DNA from: a virus | DNA length: 47,011 nt | Direction: 5' to 3' (one strand) | IMG/VR virus record: IMGVR_UViG_3300034093_001163 | Span: 1 to 47,011 of that record | In this document: positions 8,656-22,814 of the stretch, piece after piece | How positions within the stretch are numbered: the stretch's first letter is position 1 | How the letters are laid out: every line of letters begins with the position of its first letter | Translations under genes and position numbers: made by a program | The notes under the pieces: model-generated | Databases searched by the model: none | Seen by the model: the letters and a program-made list of their open reading frames with translations, nothing else | What the model was told of the DNA's origin: nothing

Positions 8656-11301
8656 TTATTTTGCGAAGAAAATACCTAAAATTTGATTTAGGGGTGCAAA
8701 TGCACCTGTTAATTTATAAGTGTTACCACCATATACGAATACTAACCCCTCATTTGGTACAATTTTATCAAATCCACCCAAAGCTTGCATTCTACTTAAT
8801 TCTAATTTAAGTTTTGCAATCTTTTTAGGGTCACCACTTGCTTTAACATCAGCTATTGTACTTTCCAAACGAGCTAACATTTGTTTAGTAGCTTGTTTTG
8901 GATTTGCTGTTAGTACCGAATCCATAAATGATAAAACGTCTGCACCAACTCCTAAAAATATCTCCTCAAATCTCATTAGATTTTGTTTTGATATTTTAGC
9001 TTGGTCATTCTTATCAGTTGAATCTGCCCATTTTTGTATTTTAGGGTCTTTTATATCTGCTATACGGAAACTCTTGTCACCAAAAGCCCATCTCTTTACT
9101 AATCCTATTTTTTGTTGTGCATCCAATCCCTTTGCATTCTTATTTACAAAGTTTGTCCACCAAGCTTGATGATAATCAGCTACTCCCGATTTATCATTTA
9201 ATGCAAATTCAGATTGTAATTTAGTTATCATTGCTAAATATTTTCCTTGTAATTTAGAAAGGTTTTCTGATTTAGGCAATTTTTGCATTGGGGGTCCCTG
9301 AATTGTGTACTTAGATTGAACGTGTGCATTTACTTGCTTAATCATACCACCTAATACTTTTGCAGCTTCTTGATTTTCCCCAACTATAACACCTTCTTTA
9401 TCATATTCGAATGTACCATGAAATACTAATAGGGGTTGATTGTATGGAATTACGTTTACAGAGGTTGGATATATTACTTCTAAGTTCATAAAACAAGCGC
9501 CATCTTTAAATACCTTTTTTCTTTGTGGTTCAGATAACGCAGATATTGCTGCTGATAAATCTTTCATTGCGAAATTATATGCGTCTGTCAATCCACCCCT
9601 ACCACCAAACTTTTCAGCTACTTGTCCTATTGTCATAGCACCCTCACCTTTGTTCTTTAGATGCGATTTATTACGAGCTGCAACTAATCTTCCATTTACC
9701 CAACTAATTGCTAATGCTTGTCCATCAGTTTTTTCTCTTACAGTTTCCAAATCACCATTTAGTGCTTTAGTTACAATATTTTTTAAATCTGCAAAAGTAA
9801 GATTCATTTCAATATCAAATGGATGGTTCATATGCCCATAAGCACCACCTTCCATTATTAGAGATTCTTTTATAAAATCATTAGGAGCTTTTAAATCATG
9901 CTTTAATATACGATTGTACTTATCGGTTGTATCTTTGTGATTATCTATTGGTAATTTTTGGTCTACTGCTTTTTTCTTTTCTCTCTCAGATGGTATTTTA
10001 TCAAAGAAATCCCAACCTTCTAAGTTATCTAAATAGTATCCTTCATTATCATAATCATCCCAATTTGCATTCCATTGAGTACCGGTTGTTGAATTACCAT
10101 CATTGTAGAAGGCTCCATTACCACTTGCTTCAGCTATACTATCACCTTCAATACTTGATAACTTTTCATAATAGTTAATATCTTCCCATAAATGGTCCAT
10201 AGCGATTTCAGTTGCAATACGAACATCAGTTGTATGTTCCATTTCAACTTTAATACCCTTCATTAATTTAGGTTTGATATATTCTGCTGCAAATTGTTTT
10301 GGTTCATAGTATCCTTTCTCATCATACTTCTTAGCCAAATCAATTAGCGTTTTACCTTTTGCTAAACCACCAGGAATTTTATCTTCATCAATCTCCTCAT
10401 ATCCACTCATTCCTTTGTTGTTAAGTTTCTTACTATTCTTCTTAACATCTTTACTATCAGGTGCTCCATTAATATATCCACCCGGCAAACTTAAACCTAC
10501 ACCGGCACCGCCAGGCAATCCCATTTCTTTTAATGTATCTTTTTTAGGAATTCTGAATGTTACTGCTTTTTTACCATTGATTGTTGGCATTCCCCACTCA
10601 TCTTCACCAATATTTTTAACAACTACTTTTTTATTTTTGAATTTACCCATTAATAGAGTATCACCAACTTTTACGTTTAGTTTAATTTCTTCATTAATAC
10701 ATTCTTTTAAGCTCTTTAACTTAAGAGTAATTAATTTGAATATTTGGTCATCAAACTTTGGATATGCTTTTGTAAAGTTTTTCTTTCTATCAGCTGCACT
10801 TCCTGCACTTAACCAATAACGAACATCCGTACCACTAATAGGATTTGATGTAGCGGGTGCTGCATACACATATCCTCTATCTAAATAGGGTTCAGTTATT
10901 TTTCCTTTATATGGAGTAAAATACTTACCACTTAAACGATTTTCATCTTTCTCACCAACTACAACTATTAAACCAGTTGTATCCTCATCATATTTATTTA
11001 GAATTTCTTCAGGTGCATAAGGATTTTTAATATTAACAATTTTGTTTGATGGAATACCAAACATAGTTGTCATTATTGCTTTCTTTTCCTTAAAATTAAA
11101 TGGAGATTTTTTTGAATCGGTAACATTAGAAGTTCCGATATATACGCTATCCTTTCCGAATTTGCGTACTAAATTATCATAAGTTGCGTAATGGCCCTTA
11201 TGAAAAGGTTGAAAGCGGCCCGAATAAACAACAACTACTTTGTTTATGGAATCCGCTTCCAACAATATTGATTCTACTAAAAACTTTGCTAATCCTTTCA
11301 T
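8656..11301 (-). CDS. NMN adenylyltransferase-like / DUF5661 / ATP-dependent ligase-like fusion
   Basis: This 881-residue protein has three parts. Residues about 20-190 are a HxGH nucleotidyltransferase: SGRFQPFHKGHYAT (27-40, His34/His37) and ISGTDVR (155-161), as in NadM/NadR-type NMN adenylyltransferases. Residues about 335-385 match DUF5661 (EHTTDVRIATEIAMDHLWED). Residues about 490-881 form a covalent nucleotidyltransferase (ligase) domain: motif I KTDG with Lys524, FMNLEVIYP as motif III, and EGLVF (851-855) and KLTG (863-866) as motifs IV and V. Either NAD metabolism or nucleic-acid end repair is plausible; the joint function is unknown. The ATG abuts a promoter-like element. Confidence 0.75.
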   Translation of the reverse strand: MKGLAKFLVESILLEADSINKVVVVYSGRFQPFHKGHYATYDNLVRKFGKDSVYIGTSNVTDSKKSPFNFKEKKAIMTTMFGIPSNKIVNIKNPYAPEEILNKYDEDTTGLIVVVGEKDENRLSGKYFTPYKGKITEPYLDRGYVYAAPATSNPISGTDVRYWLSAGSAADRKKNFTKAYPKFDDQIFKLITLKLKSLKECINEEIKLNVKVGDTLLMGKFKNKKVVVKNIGEDEWGMPTINGKKAVTFRIPKKDTLKEMGLPGGAGVGLSLPGGYINGAPDSKDVKKNSKKLNNKGMSGYEEIDEDKIPGGLAKGKTLIDLAKKYDEKGYYEPKQFAAEYIKPKLMKGIKVEMEHTTDVRIATEIAMDHLWEDINYYEKLSSIEGDSIAEASGNGAFYNDGNSTTGTQWNANWDDYDNEGYYLDNLEGWDFFDKIPSEREKKKAVDQKLPIDNHKDTTDKYNRILKHDLKAPNDFIKESLIMEGGAYGHMNHPFDIEMNLTFADLKNIVTKALNGDLETVREKTDGQALAISWVNGRLVAARNKSHLKNKGEGAMTIGQVAEKFGGRGGLTDAYNFAMKDLSAAISALSEPQRKKVFKDGACFMNLEVIYPTSVNVIPYNQPLLVFHGTFEYDKEGVIVGENQEAAKVLGGMIKQVNAHVQSKYTIQGPPMQKLPKSENLSKLQGKYLAMITKLQSEFALNDKSGVADYHQAWWTNFVNKNAKGLDAQQKIGLVKRWAFGDKSFRIADIKDPKIQKWADSTDKNDQAKISKQNLMRFEEIFLGVGADVLSFMDSVLTANPKQATKQMLARLESTIADVKASGDPKKIAKLKLELSRMQALGGFDKIVPNEGLVFVYGGNTYKLTGAFAPLNQILGIFFAK

Positions 11302-11750: not shown

Positions 11751-12908
11751 TTATAAGAATTTTTTCAATTCATTTATAACCATTTCGGAAGTTATTGATT
11801 TGGTACATTCAAATTGACGTTCCGTACCCTTATGGTCAGGACACCAATTCCAATCACCAGCATCCAATCTAATTCTGTTAAAGCAACCCTCACATTTTCC
11901 TTTAGGTGCCGCAACTCTATAACAATCTTGCATTTCTGCCCAATCATAGGAAAATCCACTAATTAAAACAGTTGGTACATTTAAAGACCAACTCAACCAA
12001 CTCAACCCACTTCCAATACCAATAAATGCTTTTGATTTTAACATTTCATCCATTACCAATTCTAATGGGCCATTTGGGTGCTTAATTATTCCTTTTGGTA
12101 ATTTATTTCCCATATAATCATCACCCTCTTTGGATACTAATTTAACTGTATATCCTCTTTCCTTTAACCAATCTACTACATCTTGCCATCCCGTTGGGTT
12201 ATTCCAAAATTTAGATTGTGCAGTTCCAAATACACCAATACAAACTTGTTTAAGGCTTGGGTCTATTTTAACATTTCTTTTTTTAATTAAAGTTTTTACT
12301 TCTTTAAAATCTAAACCTAATATATCAGAACACATTTTTTGCATTGTTTGTGTTTTTGGGTCTATTGGATTTTTAAAGAAATTTATAGAACTATCATCAT
12401 TATAAAACAACCCAACACAATACATTGCGTATAAATTTTCAACAGCTTTGCCAGGCTCTACAAATTTTACATTAGGATATCTTTCTTCAAACATATGATT
12501 CATAAATGTAGAAGTTATAACTTCACACTCATGTTGTTTTCTAAACTCCTCAACATATGAAACCCAAGCTAATGAATCTCCTAAAGCCTTTGAATCCATT
12601 GCGATATAAACACGCTTACCTTTTGCATTATAAACATATTCGTACCATATTTTATCATTTTGATAAATAACAATTTTCCATTCTACAAAATATTCTATAC
12701 TACATTTACACCAACAATTATTTTTTATATTTGTAGAATAATGTACCTTTCCAGTTTTATTATCTATAAATTTAACTGTATATTCAGAATCTATATTTCC
12801 TTTAATTTCAACATATGGTCCTTTAACAAAATGAATTATCACTTTATTTTTTACCTCAACTATATTATTTTTATTTTTCTTTAAATTATCGTATATCATT
12901 AACTCCAA
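11751..12908 (-). CDS. BAHT/TibC-like O-heptosyltransferase (GT9-related)
   Basis: This 385-residue protein resembles the bacterial autotransporter heptosyltransferase family (Aah/TibC), which add heptoses to Ser residues of strand-loop-strand adhesins. Residues about 24-98 fit the family's N-terminal beta domain (FVKGPYVEIKG...KIVIY). The catalytic region has SKALGDSLAWVSYVEEFRK (106-124) with Asp111 in the GD motif. FWNNPTGWQDVVDWLKERGY (234-253) and FIGIGSGLSWLSW (295-307) fit the GT-B sugar-nucleotide region. The C-terminus has the metal finger C339-x2-C342-x13-C356-x11-C368. Its start overlaps the upstream GT gene by 10 nt, suggesting coupling. Acceptor and sugar donor are unknown. Confidence 0.82.
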   Translation of the reverse strand: MELMIYDNLKKNKNNIVEVKNKVIIHFVKGPYVEIKGNIDSEYTVKFIDNKTGKVHYSTNIKNNCWCKCSIEYFVEWKIVIYQNDKIWYEYVYNAKGKRVYIAMDSKALGDSLAWVSYVEEFRKQHECEVITSTFMNHMFEERYPNVKFVEPGKAVENLYAMYCVGLFYNDDSSINFFKNPIDPKTQTMQKMCSDILGLDFKEVKTLIKKRNVKIDPSLKQVCIGVFGTAQSKFWNNPTGWQDVVDWLKERGYTVKLVSKEGDDYMGNKLPKGIIKHPNGPLELVMDEMLKSKAFIGIGSGLSWLSWSLNVPTVLISGFSYDWAEMQDCYRVAAPKGKCEGCFNRIRLDAGDWNWCPDHKGTERQFECTKSITSEMVINELKKFL

Positions 12909-15070
12909 GTTTTAACTGTTAAATCTAATAAAGAGAATCCCTCTGCTTGCTTACTATATACTTTGTTTGTTGTATATCTTAGTCTTGGGTGATTTATAAA
13001 TACATGATTATACCAAAGGTCACCAACATCCCAGCCACAATCTACCAACCTATCCATCCACCATTGTTTCTCTCTATTAGGAATTAAATAACAATGTGCA
13101 AGGTCTTGATTTGCTGCTGTCTTTGAAAACAACTCATCTATTTTTTCTTTTTCTCTTGATGGATTATCTGCAAATGATATGAATGGTACATTATCTCTCT
13201 CTGATAAGAAACATGCTCTATGTACTATTTCAACAAATTCTTCCAAACCAGTATAGATAAATGCATCGGCTTCAAATACCAAAGTGTAATCAAAGTTTCC
13301 AGTATCCATCGTTTCCAATGCCATTCTATGTGCCAAATAACAGCCATAGTGTCTACCAGTCATCCAACCTAAACCAGCACCAGGGTATAATTCTCCCGGC
13401 TTATTATCTTTACTTATATGTTCAGGTCTTCTACAATTTTCAGCAGGTGCAAATCCTTCATATGGTTCATTTACAATTGGTTCGTAATACATACCATATT
13501 TTTCTAATTGTTTGATAGATTGAATAGATACTCTTTCTCTCATATCATCCGGCCTAGTCAACATATGTTTTATTTGAATACGAGGCTTTTTACGAATGAA
13601 TGAACGAAATCCTTTATCAAACTGCTCATAGAAAAATTCATTTGCAGCTTGTGTTACTCCGTGAAATACTGTATAATCATCTCCACTAATAATTCCACCT
13701 GGCTTTACTTTGTTGTACCAAACTTTTACATCTTCCATTAAAGAATCGTAAGAATGTCCAGCATCTAACATAATAAAATCTATACTACCATTTTGAAATT
13801 GATTAGCTGCATTATGTGAAGTATCTTTAATTGTATCAAATGTACCATAGTTATCTGATAAGACTGTATTATCTATGAATTCATAAAATATATCTCCATT
13901 AAATGTGCCAACAATATTTTGATGCAATTCTTCATCATCAGTTCCTTTCCAAGTATCTACGCTTGTGAATTTAATATCTTTACCAGACTCTTTAATTTTT
14001 GTTGCTAAATGATTTGTTGATTTACCAAACCATGCACCCACTTCTACAAATGTTTCACCACCTTTAGCGGATTCAACCATTTCATTATATAAATCAGTAT
14101 ATGCAAACCAACCAGGTATTTCATTAAATTCAGGTTGTAGTGTTTCTAATATAACTCTCTTAGTTAATTTTAAATCATCGTTAATATAAGTTACTAATGA
14201 ATTATTATCGTATGTATCTAAATAGGTGTGTAATTTTCTAAATATAGAAGGTAGTTTATATGATAGAGCTTCTTTAACTGATAATGGATTTAATTCTATT
14301 TTAGATGCAAAATAAAACATATCACTTGCTGCATAGAATGTATCAACATCAGTCCTCTCACCCCATATGACACAATTTTCAGGTTTATAATCCATTAAAG
14401 GTCTCCAATAGTGTTCAAAGTTTCCAGCCTGATTTCCTACAAAATGAAATTTAATTTTATATTTTTCTAATTGTCTTGCTATTGAAAATATTTCACCTTG
14501 ATTTTTACCTGGTGCAAATAAACCAACATTAAGTACATGCTTCCAAGTTGGGTCTAATCCCAATTCTTTTTGGGCCTCCTCCTTATTAAATTCATATTCT
14601 TCAATTGGATATTCCCATATATCAGTTTCAACGCCGGTTTCAATAAATCGTTGTCTACTCCATTCAGATACTAAAATGTACCTATCAGGATGATAAGCTA
14701 TTTCAGATGGATTTGTTAATGAACCATGTGTAGATGCTACAATAAAATAAGGTCTATCTTTTCTAAAAATAACGTCTAATGCAAATAATGGTAAATCAAA
14801 TTGTGGTATTTCCTGAAAATGAATTATATCAGGTTTAAAATCCTCAATAATTTGTAATATTCTAGATTTATCTTCTGCTAATGTATGTACTGGTACTAAC
14901 GACTTTATTCTATTTTTTTGAACCACAAAAGCATTTCCACCACTATTGTTTATTTCAACAACTTCAATTTCAAAATCTTTTATGAATTCTTTTACCTGCT
15001 TATATAGGTATTGCGGTTGACCCCCAGTAGAAAGATGCGGAGCAACATAAAGTAACTTCTTTTTAGACAT
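12899..15070 (-). CDS. Three-domain GT4 glycosyltransferase / class I methyltransferase / GT25-like protein
   Basis: This 723-residue protein has three enzymatic regions. Residues about 5-315 are a GT-B, GT4-type glycosyltransferase: YVAPHLSTGGQPQYLYKQ (8-25), VGLFAPGKNQGE (182-193), and KIELNPLSVKEALSYKLPSI (257-276) as the E-x7-E sugar-nucleotide motif. Residues about 325-490 are a SAM-dependent methyltransferase: TFVEVGAWFGKST (340-352), FTSVDTW (368-374) and FIMLDAGHSYDSLMEDV (432-448). Residues about 500-723 resemble GT25: RERVSIQSIKQLEKYG (511-526), GCYLAHRMAL (576-585) and FEADAF (599-604). A host-type promoter lies directly upstream, and the BAHT-like gene overlaps its end. Confidence 0.82.
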   Translation of the reverse strand: MSKKKLLYVAPHLSTGGQPQYLYKQVKEFIKDFEIEVVEINNSGGNAFVVQKNRIKSLVPVHTLAEDKSRILQIIEDFKPDIIHFQEIPQFDLPLFALDVIFRKDRPYFIVASTHGSLTNPSEIAYHPDRYILVSEWSRQRFIETGVETDIWEYPIEEYEFNKEEAQKELGLDPTWKHVLNVGLFAPGKNQGEIFSIARQLEKYKIKFHFVGNQAGNFEHYWRPLMDYKPENCVIWGERTDVDTFYAASDMFYFASKIELNPLSVKEALSYKLPSIFRKLHTYLDTYDNNSLVTYINDDLKLTKRVILETLQPEFNEIPGWFAYTDLYNEMVESAKGGETFVEVGAWFGKSTNHLATKIKESGKDIKFTSVDTWKGTDDEELHQNIVGTFNGDIFYEFIDNTVLSDNYGTFDTIKDTSHNAANQFQNGSIDFIMLDAGHSYDSLMEDVKVWYNKVKPGGIISGDDYTVFHGVTQAANEFFYEQFDKGFRSFIRKKPRIQIKHMLTRPDDMRERVSIQSIKQLEKYGMYYEPIVNEPYEGFAPAENCRRPEHISKDNKPGELYPGAGLGWMTGRHYGCYLAHRMALETMDTGNFDYTLVFEADAFIYTGLEEFVEIVHRACFLSERDNVPFISFADNPSREKEKIDELFSKTAANQDLAHCYLIPNREKQWWMDRLVDCGWDVGDLWYNHVFINHPRLRYTTNKVYSKQAEGFSLLDLTVKTWS

Positions 15071-15124: not shown

Positions 15125-15409
15125 TTATTCAACGGATTCAAATATAACAACACCTTCTTTTAAATCTATTTCACCCTTTGGATATGTTTTTTCCAAATCT
15201 TTGATAACTTGATTAAATTCTAAACCAATTTTATCAGATTCAGTTTCTACACCTTCTTTAACAGATTCCAATCTTTTAATTTCCAATTGCAATTCTCTAA
15301 TTCTCAAATGAATTTGTCCTAAATTCAGTATCAATTCATTTGCTTGAGTTTGATATGATACCAATTTGTCTAATGTTTCCTTTGGTAATTGTTCAGTCTT
15401 TTGTGCCAT
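15125..15409 (-). CDS. Small acidic coiled-coil protein, paralogue of the protein at 11336-11701
   Basis: This 94-residue protein is helical and acidic through about residue 75, with LGQIHLRIRELQLEIKRLES (about 30-50) as probable coiled coil. It ends in a short beta-like segment, TYPKGEIDLKEGVVIFES. It is a shorter version of the 121-residue protein near 11.5 kb, lacking that protein's Gln/Ala tail. The gene sits between the giant fibre gene (32 nt before it) and the glycosyltransferase operon. No known family is recognised; a small virion or fibre-assembly protein is possible. Confidence 0.6.
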   Translation of the reverse strand: MAQKTEQLPKETLDKLVSYQTQANELILNLGQIHLRIRELQLEIKRLESVKEGVETESDKIGLEFNQVIKDLEKTYPKGEIDLKEGVVIFESVE

Positions 15410-15440: not shown

Positions 15441-18400
15441 TTAAGAATTAAGTTTAGATTCTAAATCCCTAACTTTTAAGGTTAATTCTTGAACTGCTTT
15501 CCATAGAACAAATACTAATCCTTGCTTATCAATACCAGATGTCATCCATTTTTTATCTCCAGTTGGATTTTCCTCATCCTCATAATGCCAATCAAAATCA
15601 ACCCAATCTTCAAAGCCAGCAGCAACTACTTCTTCCGCAATTACACCGGTTTGAATAGGAGGATTTTCTAAATCCTTATCAGCTTTCCAATAGTAATTTA
15701 CAATTGGAACACTTAATATTTTATCTAATAAATTATCAGGTTCCCAACTTGTGATATCATATTTATGCCTTATACACGAAGTATCTCTACCAATAGTCCA
15801 GTTACTAAGTGATATTTCCAATCCTCTACGAGTTCCACCACCAGGACTATATAAACCAAATAAATAAACCGTAGGAAATGTTTCCCCACCCTGAGTTGTA
15901 TATGTTAATTGTCCGGCTTTTCCATTACTTGCTTGCCAGTTAGTAAAACCAGTTCCCAATGTTATATTATTACCATTAGTATTAATGTGTCCAGCAGATG
16001 CTTCTATATTAATTGCATTTCCACCACTTGTACCTTTTATCTGAACAGTTGAGTTTGTACCATCTCCAGTTAATTCGTACCATCCCTTTGATTTTAATAT
16101 TGGGTATGCCGTTGATGTATTTTTTTCTGCTTTAAAATATTTGTTTGTACCAGATGCAATTTGTATTCCTGAACTTGTCAACTCAACTATTTCAGTAAGT
16201 TTATCCAATTGTATTCCTGGGAATGTTTGTGCAAAGAAAATATCAACATTACCACTAATAACAGTTCCCCATTGGATATGCCAAGGGTATGCATAATATG
16301 TTACACCTGCTTCTAAAGTAAGTGTTTGATTACTTGTTGCTGTTCCTGTAACTGATGCACCAGAACCACCACTAAAAGTTGAAACATAAAAGTAACCTGC
16401 TGTTAGTGATGTGATTTTGGTGCCAGCGGGATCATCTGTAGAGAATATATCAAATCCAAACTCTCCATTAATTTCACCAGACCAAGGTGTATTTGGAGTG
16501 ACTCCTACGTTATTAGCAGAAAAATCAATATCACCATCTGAAAATGTACCAACAAATCCATTTAAATTAATTGCTGTACCATTACCAGCCGTAAGTGTGT
16601 AAGTTTTAGTGTAACCATTACTCAAATATGTACTGGAATTAGCCGAACTAATTGAAGGTAAGGCATCATTTATTGTAGCTACAGTAAAAGTGACAGGACT
16701 TCCTCCAACTTCTGATAAAGAACCTTTTTTTAATATTAAATCAGGATTGCCACTTGCGGTTGTTTTTATGTAAATACTATTATTAGCTGCATCTAAAAAT
16801 AAAGTATTTAAATTATTTTTAATTAAACCAGAATCAATTATCCATCCATCAATACCTCCTAAATAACCACTATCAGCGGTAACTGAACCTGCAATAGTCA
16901 AATTAGTACCATCAAAAAATAATCTATTACCTAATGAAAATTTATTAGTAGTATCTACATAGAATGGTGTATTTAAATTATTATAAGTACCAGTTCCTAT
17001 GTATATTTTACGATTAGATGTTTGAGCATCCAATACTATTTGAGGATATACATCTGAGCCTACTGCAAATTTGTTAGAAAAATAACCTTGAACACCAGCA
17101 ACCACAGGTGCATATACAAAATTAGATGATATAAACGTGCCAGTAAATGCACCATCTGCTAATTGTTGAGTTTTAGCCACTGCATTAATAAATGCTGCAC
17201 TAGCGGTTAAATTAGCTATATTTGCTGCTGACGTAAGAGCAATTGCTGCTGAACTTGATGCTGAATTATTTGCGTATGCTTGCGTTGATGCATTACCACT
17301 ACCTCCAGCTACTATATTCAAATCACCAGATAATTCCAAACCAGTTCCGGTCCATCTAAGATAGTTAGTACCTGCTGCGTTTTTTAAAGAAAATCTTGGT
17401 TTGTATGTAGTTGGCCCAGTTCCATCATTATAGATACCCAACCATATACCAACTTGGTCATATCCAATTGTACCATATTGACCTATTGCCATATAAGGGT
17501 CTTCTCTACCACCAGCCAATACAATGTTTGCAAATGCACTACCACTATTGTTACCAACGTTAATTGTGTTTTTTACAAATGATTCTTCAAATATTGCAAT
17601 CTTAGCTGCCACAAAGAATTCTTCTTCTCCTAAAAATTGCCACCAAGCATTATCACCACCAGCAGTTGGTGCATGATAATTAACTAAAGTACCTTGCTTA
17701 TTATAAGTTGTAGGTCCACTTCCACTTATTGCTGCGTAATAAGTTACCGGAGATGTTCCATAGATAACGGCATCTCTTCTTGTATTTTTAGTCTCAACTG
17801 AACCACTATAATCAGTTGCATTGTTCCACTCACCTCTCATTACAATACCAGGTCCAGTTGACCCTTCTATTTGTATTGATAATGATTGTGTTTTATATAG
17901 GGTTTGTCTACCTTCACATTCAATTTGATATACAATTTCAGCAATACTATTTGTTTGTGGGTCTGCCCAATTTGTTATTGGTGGCATTTCAGCAGGTACT
18001 CCAGTTACATAGCTTCCCACTAACCAACTATTTGGTAAAGTTAGCCAAGATGATTTAGTATATATAGAAACCCTACATTGATTTGGGTATCCAGTTTTAC
18101 CATATGCATCTACTGCAGTTATAGGACTCCATCCGGCCGGCTGATTTGTTAATTCTTGATTACCTCTATATACTCTAACTAATGTACCCGTTCCAGATGT
18201 TCTAAATTCTCCAGATACTCTATAAACTGCTGATGAATTTTCATTTGTTAATTTAACATCATATGGAGCTGGTGGTTCAAATTGTACAGAAATAGATTGT
18301 GTTACAAATTGAACTTGTCTTCCACCATATACTCTATCATTTTCAAAATCTACCTTATATACAATTGTACCCGATGAACTAACAGCTGGTGCGTACCAAC

Positions 18401-21400
18401 CAATTATATCTCCAATTGAAGCTGGACTTCCAGCTGGGAATTTATTAGCTGCTGTTGTAATCCAAGACGATGTTGTAAATATTGATGCAGATGAATATCC
18501 TAATATACCAATAACATTATCTTGGAAATCATAATCATCAGGATATGTTGGTGCCGGATACGATGTTACGTTTGTTAATTGTTGTGTTCCTTTAAATGTG
18601 GTTATCTTCATTCCAGTTGCTTTGAATGAACTTGTCCACAAATTAGCTGTCATAGCACAATTATCATTTGATGATACTATTTTATAAGCATCTGCTCCAG
18701 CCTTTATACCAGATATTGTTAATTGTCCTTCTGCTCTAATATCAGATTGTTGTAATGAAGTATATACAGGAGCTTTACCATCCGTAAGTTTAACTTTCCA
18801 AGTTTTATTTTCTCCAGGCCCAGCTGCATCAGCCCCATCAATTGGTCCAAATGTATATGATGGTGGTGTACCTTCTAATGGTTGAGGTCCATCATAAAAA
18901 GTTTCACTACCATCCAATTCAACATAATATAAATAAGCGTTTGGACCTGCTGTTACTCCAGCTGAATACGAACCTGTTGTATTAAATGCACTTACTATTA
19001 AATCAATACCACTTTCAGGTGTAGTTTTTCTACCATCTCTATTATAGTTTACAGTATATGAAGATGCTTTAAAATCTACTTTACGAGCTTTTGCAGCATC
19101 TATGTTTTTTGTAAATGTTTGAGTTCTAGTATAAATTGATGAAGTATATGAATGCCCAGCTCCTAATGCAAATGGATATACTTGAATTGTATAAAGTGCA
19201 CTTGCCGAAACGTATGGATGGTCAAATCTATTATAATTTATAGTTGCTGTACTTAATGATGAAGATGATAATGAACCTGTTCTGATATTCCATATAGAAC
19301 CTCCTCTAGTTTCAATTGAGTTTATTCTCCAAGTACCAGGAGCTATTGAACGTGTTGTGAATGTAAGAAAATCATCTCCTTCTTTAACTTGTATTGTTGT
19401 ATTTGCTGGAGAATATCCAACTGGAGTTACATAACCAACTTCATCAGCTGCTAATGTTACTACCGATGGAGTCATTAATATTTGTATAGGTGGTGCTCCT
19501 TCTAATACTTTTGTATAATTTACAATCACACTAGCAGTATAGATAGATGATGTATAATATGGATGTATTATAAGTGGATATTCAACACTACCACTTAATT
19601 GTGTAAAATTAGATGATGCACTTACTATTAACGATGCCGTATATGGTACTCCAAATGATGAAGTAAATTGTATATTACCTGATTTAATATTTTTTTCTAT
19701 TATTGAACCAGTTGCTATATAGAATGTACCATGTGTACTTAAATTATTTAAAGTATATGCGCTTGAACTAAATGCAAGATATCTAGAACCTTGTTTTAAT
19801 TTAATATCGGTAATTGAAGGTCTAAAATCATTTATAACACCTCTTGAATTAGCTCCCAATGTTACGGCGATTGGATTTACTTCAAATACAATACTCTCAT
19901 CTCCTTGCTTACCTTCGGGTACAATTGTAAATGTTTTATCTAAACTAACCGATGCAGATGTCCAAGGTTCAGTATATGTAAATGTTAGTGTTAAATTTTT
20001 AGTTTGATTTAAAGGACTTCTTACATAATTTAAACCAGATGGAGCTTGTGATGGGATTATATTTTTATTATCATCAGTTGCAACAACAGTTAGTGTTGGG
20101 TGTAAACTTTGAGTATGATAATACATCCAATATTCAGGAACCCAATCTTTATTAATTGACATTGATGGATAAATCTGAAACGAAGATGTTACTGCTTCTA
20201 ATGTACTTGTAGTTCCTCTTTTTGCAAAAGAAGCGGTAGCAAATCCAAATGAAGGTCTAAATTCAATTTCCGTTCTAGGATTTATTGTAAATGAATCAGC
20301 ATTATAAGTTACAGTACCACTATCCAATCCATCTTGCAAATCTTCCAATATAATTGATGCTAACACAGAAGATGATACAGCGTAAGCTGGACCAGATGCT
20401 GCAGATGATGATGGCATTAAGTAAACTATTCTTCTGAAATCAATTGAATCTCTATTGAATACTGCATTATAATCTATTTGGCTAGTACCTAATGAACCTG
20501 TTGATAATCCCACAATCATATTACTTGCAGTAACATAAGATAAGTTTACAAACTTTTCATTTCCTTCTTTAGAGCGAGAAATAATATGAAGTTGAATATT
20601 TGAAAAGTTTTTATAAGATTGTTTACTTAATAAAATATCATTAATACCATCAATTCTTACCGCTTGAATTTCCAAAGATGATGTACTACTATTTCTAATT
20701 TGAGTTCCTCTATAAGGTCTAATAATATGATTCACACCACCAAATCCATCTAATATTTTATATATGTTAATGGTATCGGTAAATCCCTCACACTCTCCTG
20801 TCAATTTTACTAATTGAACATTTATATCACTTCTAGAACCTGTGAAATCCTGAACTCTCATAAAAACATTACTAGTTCCAATTCCTTGTAATAATCCAGG
20901 ATATTGGCCGCTTCCTGAATACAATGGGTCTGGCCCAGCGTAAACTGATGCGGTATATTGAGATGAAGATAATGCGTTTCCAAAGAAATCAAAAGATTGA
21001 GACGTATAATGTACCGAACCTGTTAATAAAGTTTTTTGTTCTTCTATTGTTATAATCGTAGGTGGTACTGGATTTGAACCAGAATCAAACTGAAATCCTG
21101 TACTTGATGCTACTAATCTTAATTGCTTTCGTATTGTTTGTAAGTTACCACCATCAAAAGTTTTGGTTTCTTCAACCAATACAGGTATATAATTATTATT
21201 TATATCATAAAATTCAAAACGATATATAAACGTTTCTGCAGGTAAATTTCTTGGTACTGATTGTATAAATGTAATTTCATCAGGAGAGAATGCCGTTTCT
21301 TGCGATGCCTTTAAACTAACATCAGCTATGTACCAATCAGTTCCCCTCACATCAAAATATAATTTAGCATTATCAATTTTTTCTGCTTTTATATTTTCAC

Positions 21401-22814
21401 TAATATTTTGTTTTTGAAGTAAAGCGTTTTGAGTTTTTAATGTTAATATACTTTGCTTTACTTGTAGAGTAATTGGTGAACCATTTATTGTTGTTTGTCT
21501 AGAACCACTTAGGTATGCTTCAATATAATTACTAGCATTTCCAACTGCTTCTTTTTTAACATTAAAATTTAAACTATATTCAATACCCTCATTTATATTA
21601 AAAGATTTTGATGTAAAGAATTTTTCAACACCAATAGTACTATTTAATTTAACTGAATTGTATAAAAATGTTTGATTAAATGTGGTTACTAAATTATTTG
21701 AAGATGTTATCCAATATCCAAATGGATACTGTGATTTAAAATTTAAATTATCAAATAAACCATAGTTTTCTTGATTTTTTGTAGTAGATTCCAAATCAAC
21801 TAAAAGTTCATTTGATTCTAATTGTATTTCTTGAACAAATTGGAAATCAGATAAATCTGCAGTTGATTTTCTAAATATTTTAACTCTAGCACAATCACCA
21901 ACAAACGTAGTTAAATCTGCTAATGTTATTTTTGCAAAAGAACCAGTTAGTGCCGTTTTTAAATTATCAACCCCCTCCGTATAATTAAATGTTGCAGTAA
22001 ATGCTTCATTTGTAAAATTTTCAATTTGTGCAGCTGAACCCAATGCCGTATTAGTATATGGTGGTTGTACTATTATTTCTCTTGAATTAATTACTTCTGT
22101 AACTAATGGTGAATATTCTATACCAGGAATATCCAAATATGTTCCTACAACAGATGCTGTCCAAAACGTGTTTCCAACGGTTGTTAGTAAATATTCTGTG
22201 GCTTGTGTGAAATTTTTTAGTTGCTGTCCTACGTTTGGAGTTAATGCCTGCCCATTTACAATTCCAGTTTGAATTTTTGAAGTAACTACATTTGAAAATA
22301 TTGGTTTAACTATTTCAGTAATACTAACTTGAGGTCTTACATAAAATCTTACGTTATCTTCATTTGATAATAATCTATTAACTTTAAATTCTCTTTCCCA
22401 TTTAAGATTATAAATACCAGCCCATTCATCAGGAATTGGTTGAGTGATACCATCCGCATCTATATAAGTTTTCAGTTCACCCAATACAGTAATTTTTGCA
22501 TTACCAATTGGAGTATCCTCATATATGTAAACTGCGACTAATTTTGATAATCCTTCATAATATTCAGGAACACCACTACCAGGTTCAAAATAAATTGGAT
22601 TACCATCAACATCTAAAATTTCTATTTTAATTTCAGTACTCTCCTTTAAATGCTGGGAGCCTTCAACTAAAAACCCATTTTTACCTCCTGTAAATGTTTC
22701 TTTAAATTCAGTTATTCTAAAATAATCAGAATTTGGATTTGTATCTGTTACAAATGTTTGAAAATAAGTTAAATTTTGCGTTAAATTATCCGCATATTTT
22801 TTGATTCTTGCCAT
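15441..22814 (-). CDS. Giant tail fibre with C-terminal S74 intramolecular chaperone
   Basis: This 2457-residue protein is by far the largest here and is rich in Ser, Thr, Asn and Gly. About residues 970-1240 hold two tandem Ig-like units (EVNPIAVTLGANSRGV and LMTPSVVTLAADEVGY mark their starts), and about 1380-1640 hold a second pair (near IVSSNDNCAM and VKLTNENSSAVYR). A GPGIVMRGEW element near 1655 precedes a repetitive distal shaft. The C-terminus (about 2335-2457) is a Peptidase_S74 domain: DTSCIRHKYDITSWEPD, then TGVIAEEVVAAGF, ending in a coiled coil. S74 domains trimerise fibres and then usually self-cleave at the Ser. It most likely mediates host adsorption, and glycosyltransferase genes follow. 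Confidence 0.88.
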   Translation of the reverse strand: MARIKKYADNLTQNLTYFQTFVTDTNPNSDYFRITEFKETFTGGKNGFLVEGSQHLKESTEIKIEILDVDGNPIYFEPGSGVPEYYEGLSKLVAVYIYEDTPIGNAKITVLGELKTYIDADGITQPIPDEWAGIYNLKWEREFKVNRLLSNEDNVRFYVRPQVSITEIVKPIFSNVVTSKIQTGIVNGQALTPNVGQQLKNFTQATEYLLTTVGNTFWTASVVGTYLDIPGIEYSPLVTEVINSREIIVQPPYTNTALGSAAQIENFTNEAFTATFNYTEGVDNLKTALTGSFAKITLADLTTFVGDCARVKIFRKSTADLSDFQFVQEIQLESNELLVDLESTTKNQENYGLFDNLNFKSQYPFGYWITSSNNLVTTFNQTFLYNSVKLNSTIGVEKFFTSKSFNINEGIEYSLNFNVKKEAVGNASNYIEAYLSGSRQTTINGSPITLQVKQSILTLKTQNALLQKQNISENIKAEKIDNAKLYFDVRGTDWYIADVSLKASQETAFSPDEITFIQSVPRNLPAETFIYRFEFYDINNNYIPVLVEETKTFDGGNLQTIRKQLRLVASSTGFQFDSGSNPVPPTIITIEEQKTLLTGSVHYTSQSFDFFGNALSSSQYTASVYAGPDPLYSGSGQYPGLLQGIGTSNVFMRVQDFTGSRSDINVQLVKLTGECEGFTDTINIYKILDGFGGVNHIIRPYRGTQIRNSSTSSLEIQAVRIDGINDILLSKQSYKNFSNIQLHIISRSKEGNEKFVNLSYVTASNMIVGLSTGSLGTSQIDYNAVFNRDSIDFRRIVYLMPSSSAASGPAYAVSSSVLASIILEDLQDGLDSGTVTYNADSFTINPRTEIEFRPSFGFATASFAKRGTTSTLEAVTSSFQIYPSMSINKDWVPEYWMYYHTQSLHPTLTVVATDDNKNIIPSQAPSGLNYVRSPLNQTKNLTLTFTYTEPWTSASVSLDKTFTIVPEGKQGDESIVFEVNPIAVTLGANSRGVINDFRPSITDIKLKQGSRYLAFSSSAYTLNNLSTHGTFYIATGSIIEKNIKSGNIQFTSSFGVPYTASLIVSASSNFTQLSGSVEYPLIIHPYYTSSIYTASVIVNYTKVLEGAPPIQILMTPSVVTLAADEVGYVTPVGYSPANTTIQVKEGDDFLTFTTRSIAPGTWRINSIETRGGSIWNIRTGSLSSSSLSTATINYNRFDHPYVSASALYTIQVYPFALGAGHSYTSSIYTRTQTFTKNIDAAKARKVDFKASSYTVNYNRDGRKTTPESGIDLIVSAFNTTGSYSAGVTAGPNAYLYYVELDGSETFYDGPQPLEGTPPSYTFGPIDGADAAGPGENKTWKVKLTDGKAPVYTSLQQSDIRAEGQLTISGIKAGADAYKIVSSNDNCAMTANLWTSSFKATGMKITTFKGTQQLTNVTSYPAPTYPDDYDFQDNVIGILGYSSASIFTTSSWITTAANKFPAGSPASIGDIIGWYAPAVSSSGTIVYKVDFENDRVYGGRQVQFVTQSISVQFEPPAPYDVKLTNENSSAVYRVSGEFRTSGTGTLVRVYRGNQELTNQPAGWSPITAVDAYGKTGYPNQCRVSIYTKSSWLTLPNSWLVGSYVTGVPAEMPPITNWADPQTNSIAEIVYQIECEGRQTLYKTQSLSIQIEGSTGPGIVMRGEWNNATDYSGSVETKNTRRDAVIYGTSPVTYYAAISGSGPTTYNKQGTLVNYHAPTAGGDNAWWQFLGEEEFFVAAKIAIFEESFVKNTINVGNNSGSAFANIVLAGGREDPYMAIGQYGTIGYDQVGIWLGIYNDGTGPTTYKPRFSLKNAAGTNYLRWTGTGLELSGDLNIVAGGSGNASTQAYANNSASSSAAIALTSAANIANLTASAAFINAVAKTQQLADGAFTGTFISSNFVYAPVVAGVQGYFSNKFAVGSDVYPQIVLDAQTSNRKIYIGTGTYNNLNTPFYVDTTNKFSLGNRLFFDGTNLTIAGSVTADSGYLGGIDGWIIDSGLIKNNLNTLFLDAANNSIYIKTTASGNPDLILKKGSLSEVGGSPVTFTVATINDALPSISSANSSTYLSNGYTKTYTLTAGNGTAINLNGFVGTFSDGDIDFSANNVGVTPNTPWSGEINGEFGFDIFSTDDPAGTKITSLTAGYFYVSTFSGGSGASVTGTATSNQTLTLEAGVTYYAYPWHIQWGTVISGNVDIFFAQTFPGIQLDKLTEIVELTSSGIQIASGTNKYFKAEKNTSTAYPILKSKGWYELTGDGTNSTVQIKGTSGGNAINIEASAGHINTNGNNITLGTGFTNWQASNGKAGQLTYTTQGGETFPTVYLFGLYSPGGGTRRGLEISLSNWTIGRDTSCIRHKYDITSWEPDNLLDKILSVPIVNYYWKADKDLENPPIQTGVIAEEVVAAGFEDWVDFDWHYEDEENPTGDKKWMTSGIDKQGLVFVLWKAVQELTLKVRDLESKLNS

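Follow-up and report, generated by a model that had tools for sequence, protein, structure and literature searches.

An incomplete 47-kb virus fragment from IMG/VR (the window, that is, the whole 47,011-nt stretch analyzed), which encodes a T4-like terminase, portal and baseplate, carries the gene for a BAHT-type O-heptosyltransferase that falls in a clade (B) separate from that of TibC. We put the probability at roughly 60% that this clade-B enzyme uses ADP-heptose to put heptose on Ser (or Thr) residues of a virion fiber, likely within Gly-Ser/Thr-Ser stretches. With slightly less assurance, we favor a broader reading in which clade-B BAHT enzymes constitute an undescribed O-glycosylation system common to bacteria and phages that would place heptose on Ser of (Gly-Ser/Thr-Ser)n collagen-like stretches, with phages coating their fibers and part of the lineages bringing their own ADP-heptose-activating enzymes.

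The heptosyltransferase ORF encodes 385 aa if read from the listed TTG, or 382 aa if translation begins at the ATG at 12899. The ATG is the likelier start to judge from its context, since it overlaps the stop codon of the upstream glycosyltransferase gene (TAATG) and is preceded by GGAG. The gene has been under purifying selection, with dN/dS values of 0.08-0.19 relative to its relatives. A DNA-level comparison of the 23-kb flank with GenBank phages returned no relatives. Among isolated phages, the terminases nearest to that of the window belong to the immuto phages of Flavobacterium (57%) and to Mel-JY01, a Microcystis phage (56%); our guess is a Bacteroidota-like host.

Table 1. Features in and around the glycosylation genes of the window.
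Feature	Position	Strand	Basis
881-aa protein with N-terminal CTP_transf_like domain	8656..11301	-	PF01467, 32.4 bits
Small coiled-coil protein, 121 aa	11336..11701	-	Same cluster as 15125-15409
BAHT-type O-heptosyltransferase, clade B	11751..12908	-	TIGR04414, TibC match, AF2 model
723-aa fused enzyme: GT4, Methyltransf_24 and weak GT25-like C-terminal domain	12899..15070	-	Pfam
Small coiled-coil protein, 94 aa	15125..15409	-	BLAST cluster; at the same place in 87 loci
Tail fiber, 2457 aa, with C-terminal Peptidase_S74 (intramolecular chaperone)	15441..22814	-	Peptidase_S74, 38.8 bits
GST-GPG vestige of Gly-X-Y insert, fiber residues 1651-1656	17847..17864	-	Comparison with related fibers

An earlier note on this DNA had placed the protein in the BAHT/TibC family on the basis of an N-terminal beta domain, Asp111 and four C-terminal cysteines, and had proposed a profile comparison with plain LPS heptosyltransferases as a check. 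The named features were borne out. The NCBIfam model TIGR04414 matched the window protein with 281.1 bits (E = 1.3e-83; curated equivalog cut-off 200) and also matched 37 of 37 diverse relatives, and the LPS heptosyltransferase I model TIGR02193 gave only 22.5 bits against a cut-off of 185.3. A phmmer search matched TibC (4RAP; E 1e-50) at ~30% identity. The AF2 model of the protein (pLDDT 91.9) superimposed on TibC with a Z score of 41.8 and an rmsd of 2.2 over 355 residues (range 20-385), covering both domains with the barrel included, and on WaaC and WaaF with Z scores of 18-19 over the core alone. The N-terminal beta domain appears in the model as strands at residues 22-92.

Comparison with TibC also located the probable active site. 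Window D111 aligns with the catalytic Asp110; T229, K233 and W304 correspond to TibC Thr226, Lys230 and Trp305, which bind phosphate and heptose (PMC4358343); and C339, C342, C356 and C368, a predicted metal finger, align with TibC C339, C342, C358 and C370. Among 108 phage members, the Asp, Lys, Trp and all four Cys are found in 108 and the Thr in 107. The thumb position reads Y265-M266 versus F265-V266 in TibC, with Y in 104 and M in 105 of the same 108 members. The catalytic, binding and finger residues are kept, but the active site deviates at TibC Arg286, which contacts adenine N1 and whose replacement in the R286A mutant removes most activity (PMC4358343). This residue is Val in the window protein; V, L, I, A or T occupies the position in 107/108 phage members, compared with Arg in 73/85 bacterial relatives. 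Additionally, the residue that sets D,D/L,D selectivity, Pro300 in TibC and Ser294 in AAH (PMC4358343), is Gly in the window protein.

By profile and predicted structure, then, the window protein is a BAHT-fold protein heptosyltransferase in the wide sense, and the same data support the view that it is not a plain LPS heptosyltransferase. Strictly defined, the AAH/TibC group of autotransporter heptosyltransferases does not include it, because it departs from them in Arg286, in clade and in acceptor repeat. With TibC and AAH (TIGR04414; PDB 4RAP, 4RB4; PMC4358343) it shares the two domains, the catalytic Asp, the Thr/Lys/Trp set, the four-Cys finger and a hydrophobic pair at the predicted position of the beta-hairpin thumb, and with WaaC and WaaF (GT9), which are without its N-terminal barrel and Cys finger, it shares the GT-B core. 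Unlike TibC and AAH, and in addition to the differences in identity, clade and residues 286 and 300, it is phage-borne, has no strand-loop-strand acceptor and adjoins a GT4/methyltransferase/GT25-like gene, and its relatives adjoin heptose-activation genes or are fused to GT4 domains.

A tree of the relatives resolved two clades, A with TibC and B with the window protein, with a branch of 0.83 between them (SH-aLRT 100). The TIGR04415 profile, which describes the strand-loop-strand acceptor repeat, was found in 9/10 tested clade-A genomes, in 0/10 tested clade-B bacterial genomes and in 0/20 phage records (the window and 19 others). The profile thus gave no sign of acceptor repeats of the autotransporter kind in these 20 records, in agreement with the earlier failure to see 19-residue repeats in the fiber. 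We regard clade B as a second branch, so far overlooked, of a bacterial family whose only known role is the decoration of adhesins. Four nominally bacterial clade-B contigs, taken from MAG bins assigned to Rickettsiaceae, Bacteroidetes, Flavobacteriales and Pacearchaeota (L086, L092, L093 and L099), have phage-like BAHT fusions or fibers and may well be of phage origin.

Viral relatives of the window enzyme numbered 137 in a first scan and at least 542 in a second, and the phages with such an enzyme form a widespread freshwater group. All 25 terminase-anchored loci of the lineage with at least 5 kb upstream carry the gene, making it a core gene, so presence or absence within the close lineage was uninformative as evidence. 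The order in the close lineage is fiber, small coiled coil, GT4/methyltransferase/GT25-like protein of ~725 aa and BAHT, followed by optional HldC-like and HldA-like genes, a coiled coil, a nucleotidyltransferase protein, a 227-aa protein and the terminase. In 115/131 phage loci the gene immediately preceding BAHT belongs to the cluster of the 723-aa protein, and in 76/108 loci whose upstream sequence is long enough a fiber of the S74 cluster lies at most six genes upstream. Phage loci are not independent, though, and such adjacency statistics, built on a simple gene caller, are inflated by shared descent and the clustering of fiber genes. Fusions of BAHT to a GT4-type domain (ORFs of 700-1230 aa), located amid other fiber genes, are frequent in distant phages. 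For example, in the isolated phage Mel-JY01 BAHT forms the C-terminal part of a 1226-aa protein (L082:4747-8430; PP395634.1) that is annotated only as "methyltransferase FkbM" and lies near a Gly-X-Y fiber with 149 consecutive triplets. One phage contig of 274 kb also encodes, within its glycosylation cassette, a 665-aa protein whose C-terminal part is of the radical SAM/SPASM type (L201:5477-7474), a candidate peptide- or sugar-modifying enzyme.

Several neighbors of the heptosyltransferase gene could be characterized further. Pfam matches in the 723-aa protein were Glycos_transf_1 (33.6 bits), Methyltransf_24 (65.4 bits) and, below its cut-off, Glyco_transf_25 (15.9 bits); the GT25-like domain is weakly assigned because the matches listed by Foldseek were GT4-type enzymes alone. 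The two coiled-coil paralogues, which flank the glycosylation genes and whose family turns up again in distant phages close to fiber and tail genes (L200, L203 and L204), are possibly fiber or assembly chaperones. The 881-aa protein also has a DUF5661 match, with cluster members of up to 1490 aa, and the Flavobacterium phage immuto has a similar gene, with an N-terminal nucleotidyltransferase domain and annotated NadR, in the same genome region; this conserved neighbor is not evidently part of heptose synthesis.

The acceptor class with the best support for clade B, and the most likely one by genomic association, is the collagen-like Gly-Ser/Thr-Ser repeat. Half of the clade-B loci (11/22) have a Gly-X-Y gene within 3 kb of BAHT, compared with 0/56 loci of clade A (Fisher 9e-8). 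The evidence from bacteria is stronger than that from phages, although the bacterial set includes related Gammaproteobacteria and Methylococcaceae: of 13 clade-B bacterial genomes, 10 have a Pfam collagen match no more than 6 kb from BAHT (binomial ~2e-18 under a loose null, with distances entered by hand), and in seven of them it is the sole such place. Methylobacter luteus, for instance, has one collagen-like place in 5.0 Mb, and it is less than 1 kb from BAHT, the neighbor being a (GTSG)n protein of 287 aa. The bacterial partners are small GTSG/GSSG-rich proteins with apparent export signals and occur upstream or downstream of BAHT and in both orientations, so that a single inherited arrangement cannot account for all of them. 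In distant phages, collagen-like fibers lie ~2.5-10 kb from the BAHT gene, and collagen-like proteins are encoded by 12/13 BAHT phages of at least 100 kb compared with 1/12 terminase-related phages without BAHT, the latter being a phylogenetically uneven control set. GSS and GTS triplets predominate in both groups (158/214 in bacteria and 1968/3312 in distant phages). In the window's own lineage, collagen-like fibers are tens of kb from the heptosyltransferase; four very large fiber ORFs (L307-L310) contain uninterrupted Gly-X-Y runs of as many as 271 triplets, for the most part GSS/GTS.

Which protein the window enzyme modifies is a question on which the readings diverge. The earlier note had pointed to the 2457-residue, Ser/Thr-rich fiber upstream of a short cassette, and both the fiber, by far the largest protein nearby with 20% Ser+Thr, and the cassette, whose order is conserved across the lineage, are as described. 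These properties, along with the 47-kb fragment having neither a Pfam collagen match nor a Gly-X-Y run of more than five triplets, would fit an enzyme that acts on ordinary Ser/Thr sites of this adjacent S74 fiber, with the clade-B collagen link inapplicable to the lineage. We consider this possible but doubtful, given that 16/77 members of the fiber family have a Gly-X-Y insert of 6-11 triplets at one conserved place, mostly preceding a GPGVVYRG-like motif, and that larger lineage relatives (G002, G003, G004 and G010) encode very large collagen-like fibers elsewhere in the genome. G[ST][ST]G motifs were not significantly enriched in the window fiber (2 observed versus 0.7 expected). Since the window fiber retains just a vestige of the insert and relatives have collagen-like fibers elsewhere, the acceptor would be either a fiber beyond the fragment or other sites in the adjacent fiber, which is thus a candidate acceptor. 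The proposal of virion-fiber O-glycosylation therefore keeps the conserved fiber-enzyme order, but with the collagen-like repeat, rather than the giant fiber, as the best-supported acceptor class. Host-surface modification by phage glycosyltransferases is a familiar phenomenon and, with the fold kinship to WaaC and WaaF, lends some weight to a role on a host surface glycan such as the LPS core, which might be altered in infected cells to keep out, for instance, superinfecting phages. We judge such a role improbable, as the BAHT N-terminal barrel and Cys finger missing from LPS enzymes are present, the TIGR02193 score is far below its cut-off, and relatives sit amid virion fiber genes in distant phages. 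Even less credible is glycosylation of a host autotransporter adhesin, the activity of AAH and TibC: the autotransporter heptosyltransferase model is matched above its cut-off, but the clade is different and the acceptor repeats are missing from all 20 phage records and 10 clade-B genomes. The analogy with adhesin glycosylation implied by the earlier note found no support, given these differences, the collagen-like genomic partner and the changed Arg286.

The readings also differ in the sugar donor. Given that TibC Arg286 is Val in the window enzyme, the donor could differ, and a protein O-glycosyltransferase that uses something other than ADP-heptose, with the loss of Arg286 reflecting a nucleotide or sugar switch, would agree with the near absence of this Arg from phage members and with the crippling effect of R286A on TibC (PMC4358343). 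We find this unlikely, however, in view of the neighboring genes and the retained phosphate- and heptose-binding Lys, Thr and Trp. An HldC-like gene adjoins BAHT in 61/137 phage loci, usually with a gap of 0 to -3 nt, and in 51/137 an HldC-like and then an HldA-like gene are directly downstream, by wide margins resembling both HldE activities. The best match of the HldC-like protein (129 aa) was heptose-1-phosphate adenylyltransferase (rfaE domain II; 100-111 bits for two members) compared with 67 bits for the glycerol-3-phosphate cytidylyltransferase model, and PHROG 7878, which matches this protein, bears the same heptose name. Likewise, the HldA-like protein, a 250-aa PfkB kinase, best matched heptose-7-phosphate kinase (rfaE domain I; 93-117 bits) compared with 32-44 bits for ribokinase. 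We call both proteins "like" because their scores are below the NCBI equivalog cut-offs. As judged by these matches, the two genes favor ADP-heptose as the donor, and the adenylyltransferase-like neighbor with its kinase weakens a switch to CDP-sugars, an option raised by the loss of Arg286 and by the nucleotidyltransferase next to BAHT. A complete heptose pathway in the phages was rejected, as GmhB had no match in 20 phage records and GmhA was found in just one. Neither HldC nor HldA was found in the window, which together with the lack of GmhB in the 20 records means that at least some of the pathway has to come from the host. Far from BAHT, two huge BAHT phages encode a GmhA above cut-off (251 bits; LR756504.1:430182-430640, L220) and an HldA-like kinase of 306 bits (cut-off 345; LR756501.1:209213-210175), respectively.

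For the favored reading, heptose transfer to a virion fiber, we infer the sugar, the acceptor and the following order of steps. Host enzymes would make ADP-heptose, with phage HldC- and HldA-like enzymes, as gene order suggests, boosting the supply in about two fifths of related loci. The BAHT enzyme, whose computed fold and catalytic residues are compatible with such an activity, would then, in the cytoplasm, transfer heptose to Ser (or Thr) of the not yet assembled fiber. The translationally coupled GT4-methyltransferase-GT25-like protein, adjacent in the window's lineage and with counterparts in the fusions, probably extends and methylates the glycan. Stiffening, shielding from proteases or receptors, and host range are candidate benefits of the fiber glycan.

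Phage virion glycosylation as such is already known, for instance in the mycobacteriophages Che8, Corndog and Myrna (Freeman et al. 2023, cited in PMC12363180 and PMC12619734), where, as proposed here, phage glycosyltransferases modify virion proteins. In contrast to the present case, the glycans there are on the capsid and tail tube, and the relevant passages of the two citing papers state no link to BAHT, heptose or collagen-like acceptors. Collagen-like phage tail proteins with Gly-X-Y stretches have also been described, for example in E. coli prophages (PMC3368898), but our literature search, which covered few subscription journals, found no linked heptosyltransferase reported for them and no report of a phage BAHT, of heptosylated collagen-like proteins or of a BAHT phage enzyme tied to collagen-like repeats and heptose activation.

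If the favored reading is true, BAHT-type enzymes are not just modifiers of bacterial adhesins, and a large branch of the family, abundant in environmental phages, is tied to collagen-like repeats, with Gly-Ser/Thr-Ser as the acceptor rule and with phage-encoded heptose activation. Glycan-stiffened or shielded shafts would then be a possible reason for the Ser/Thr repeats in many phage fibers, and a glycosylated fiber would matter for host recognition by, and structural studies of, these phages.
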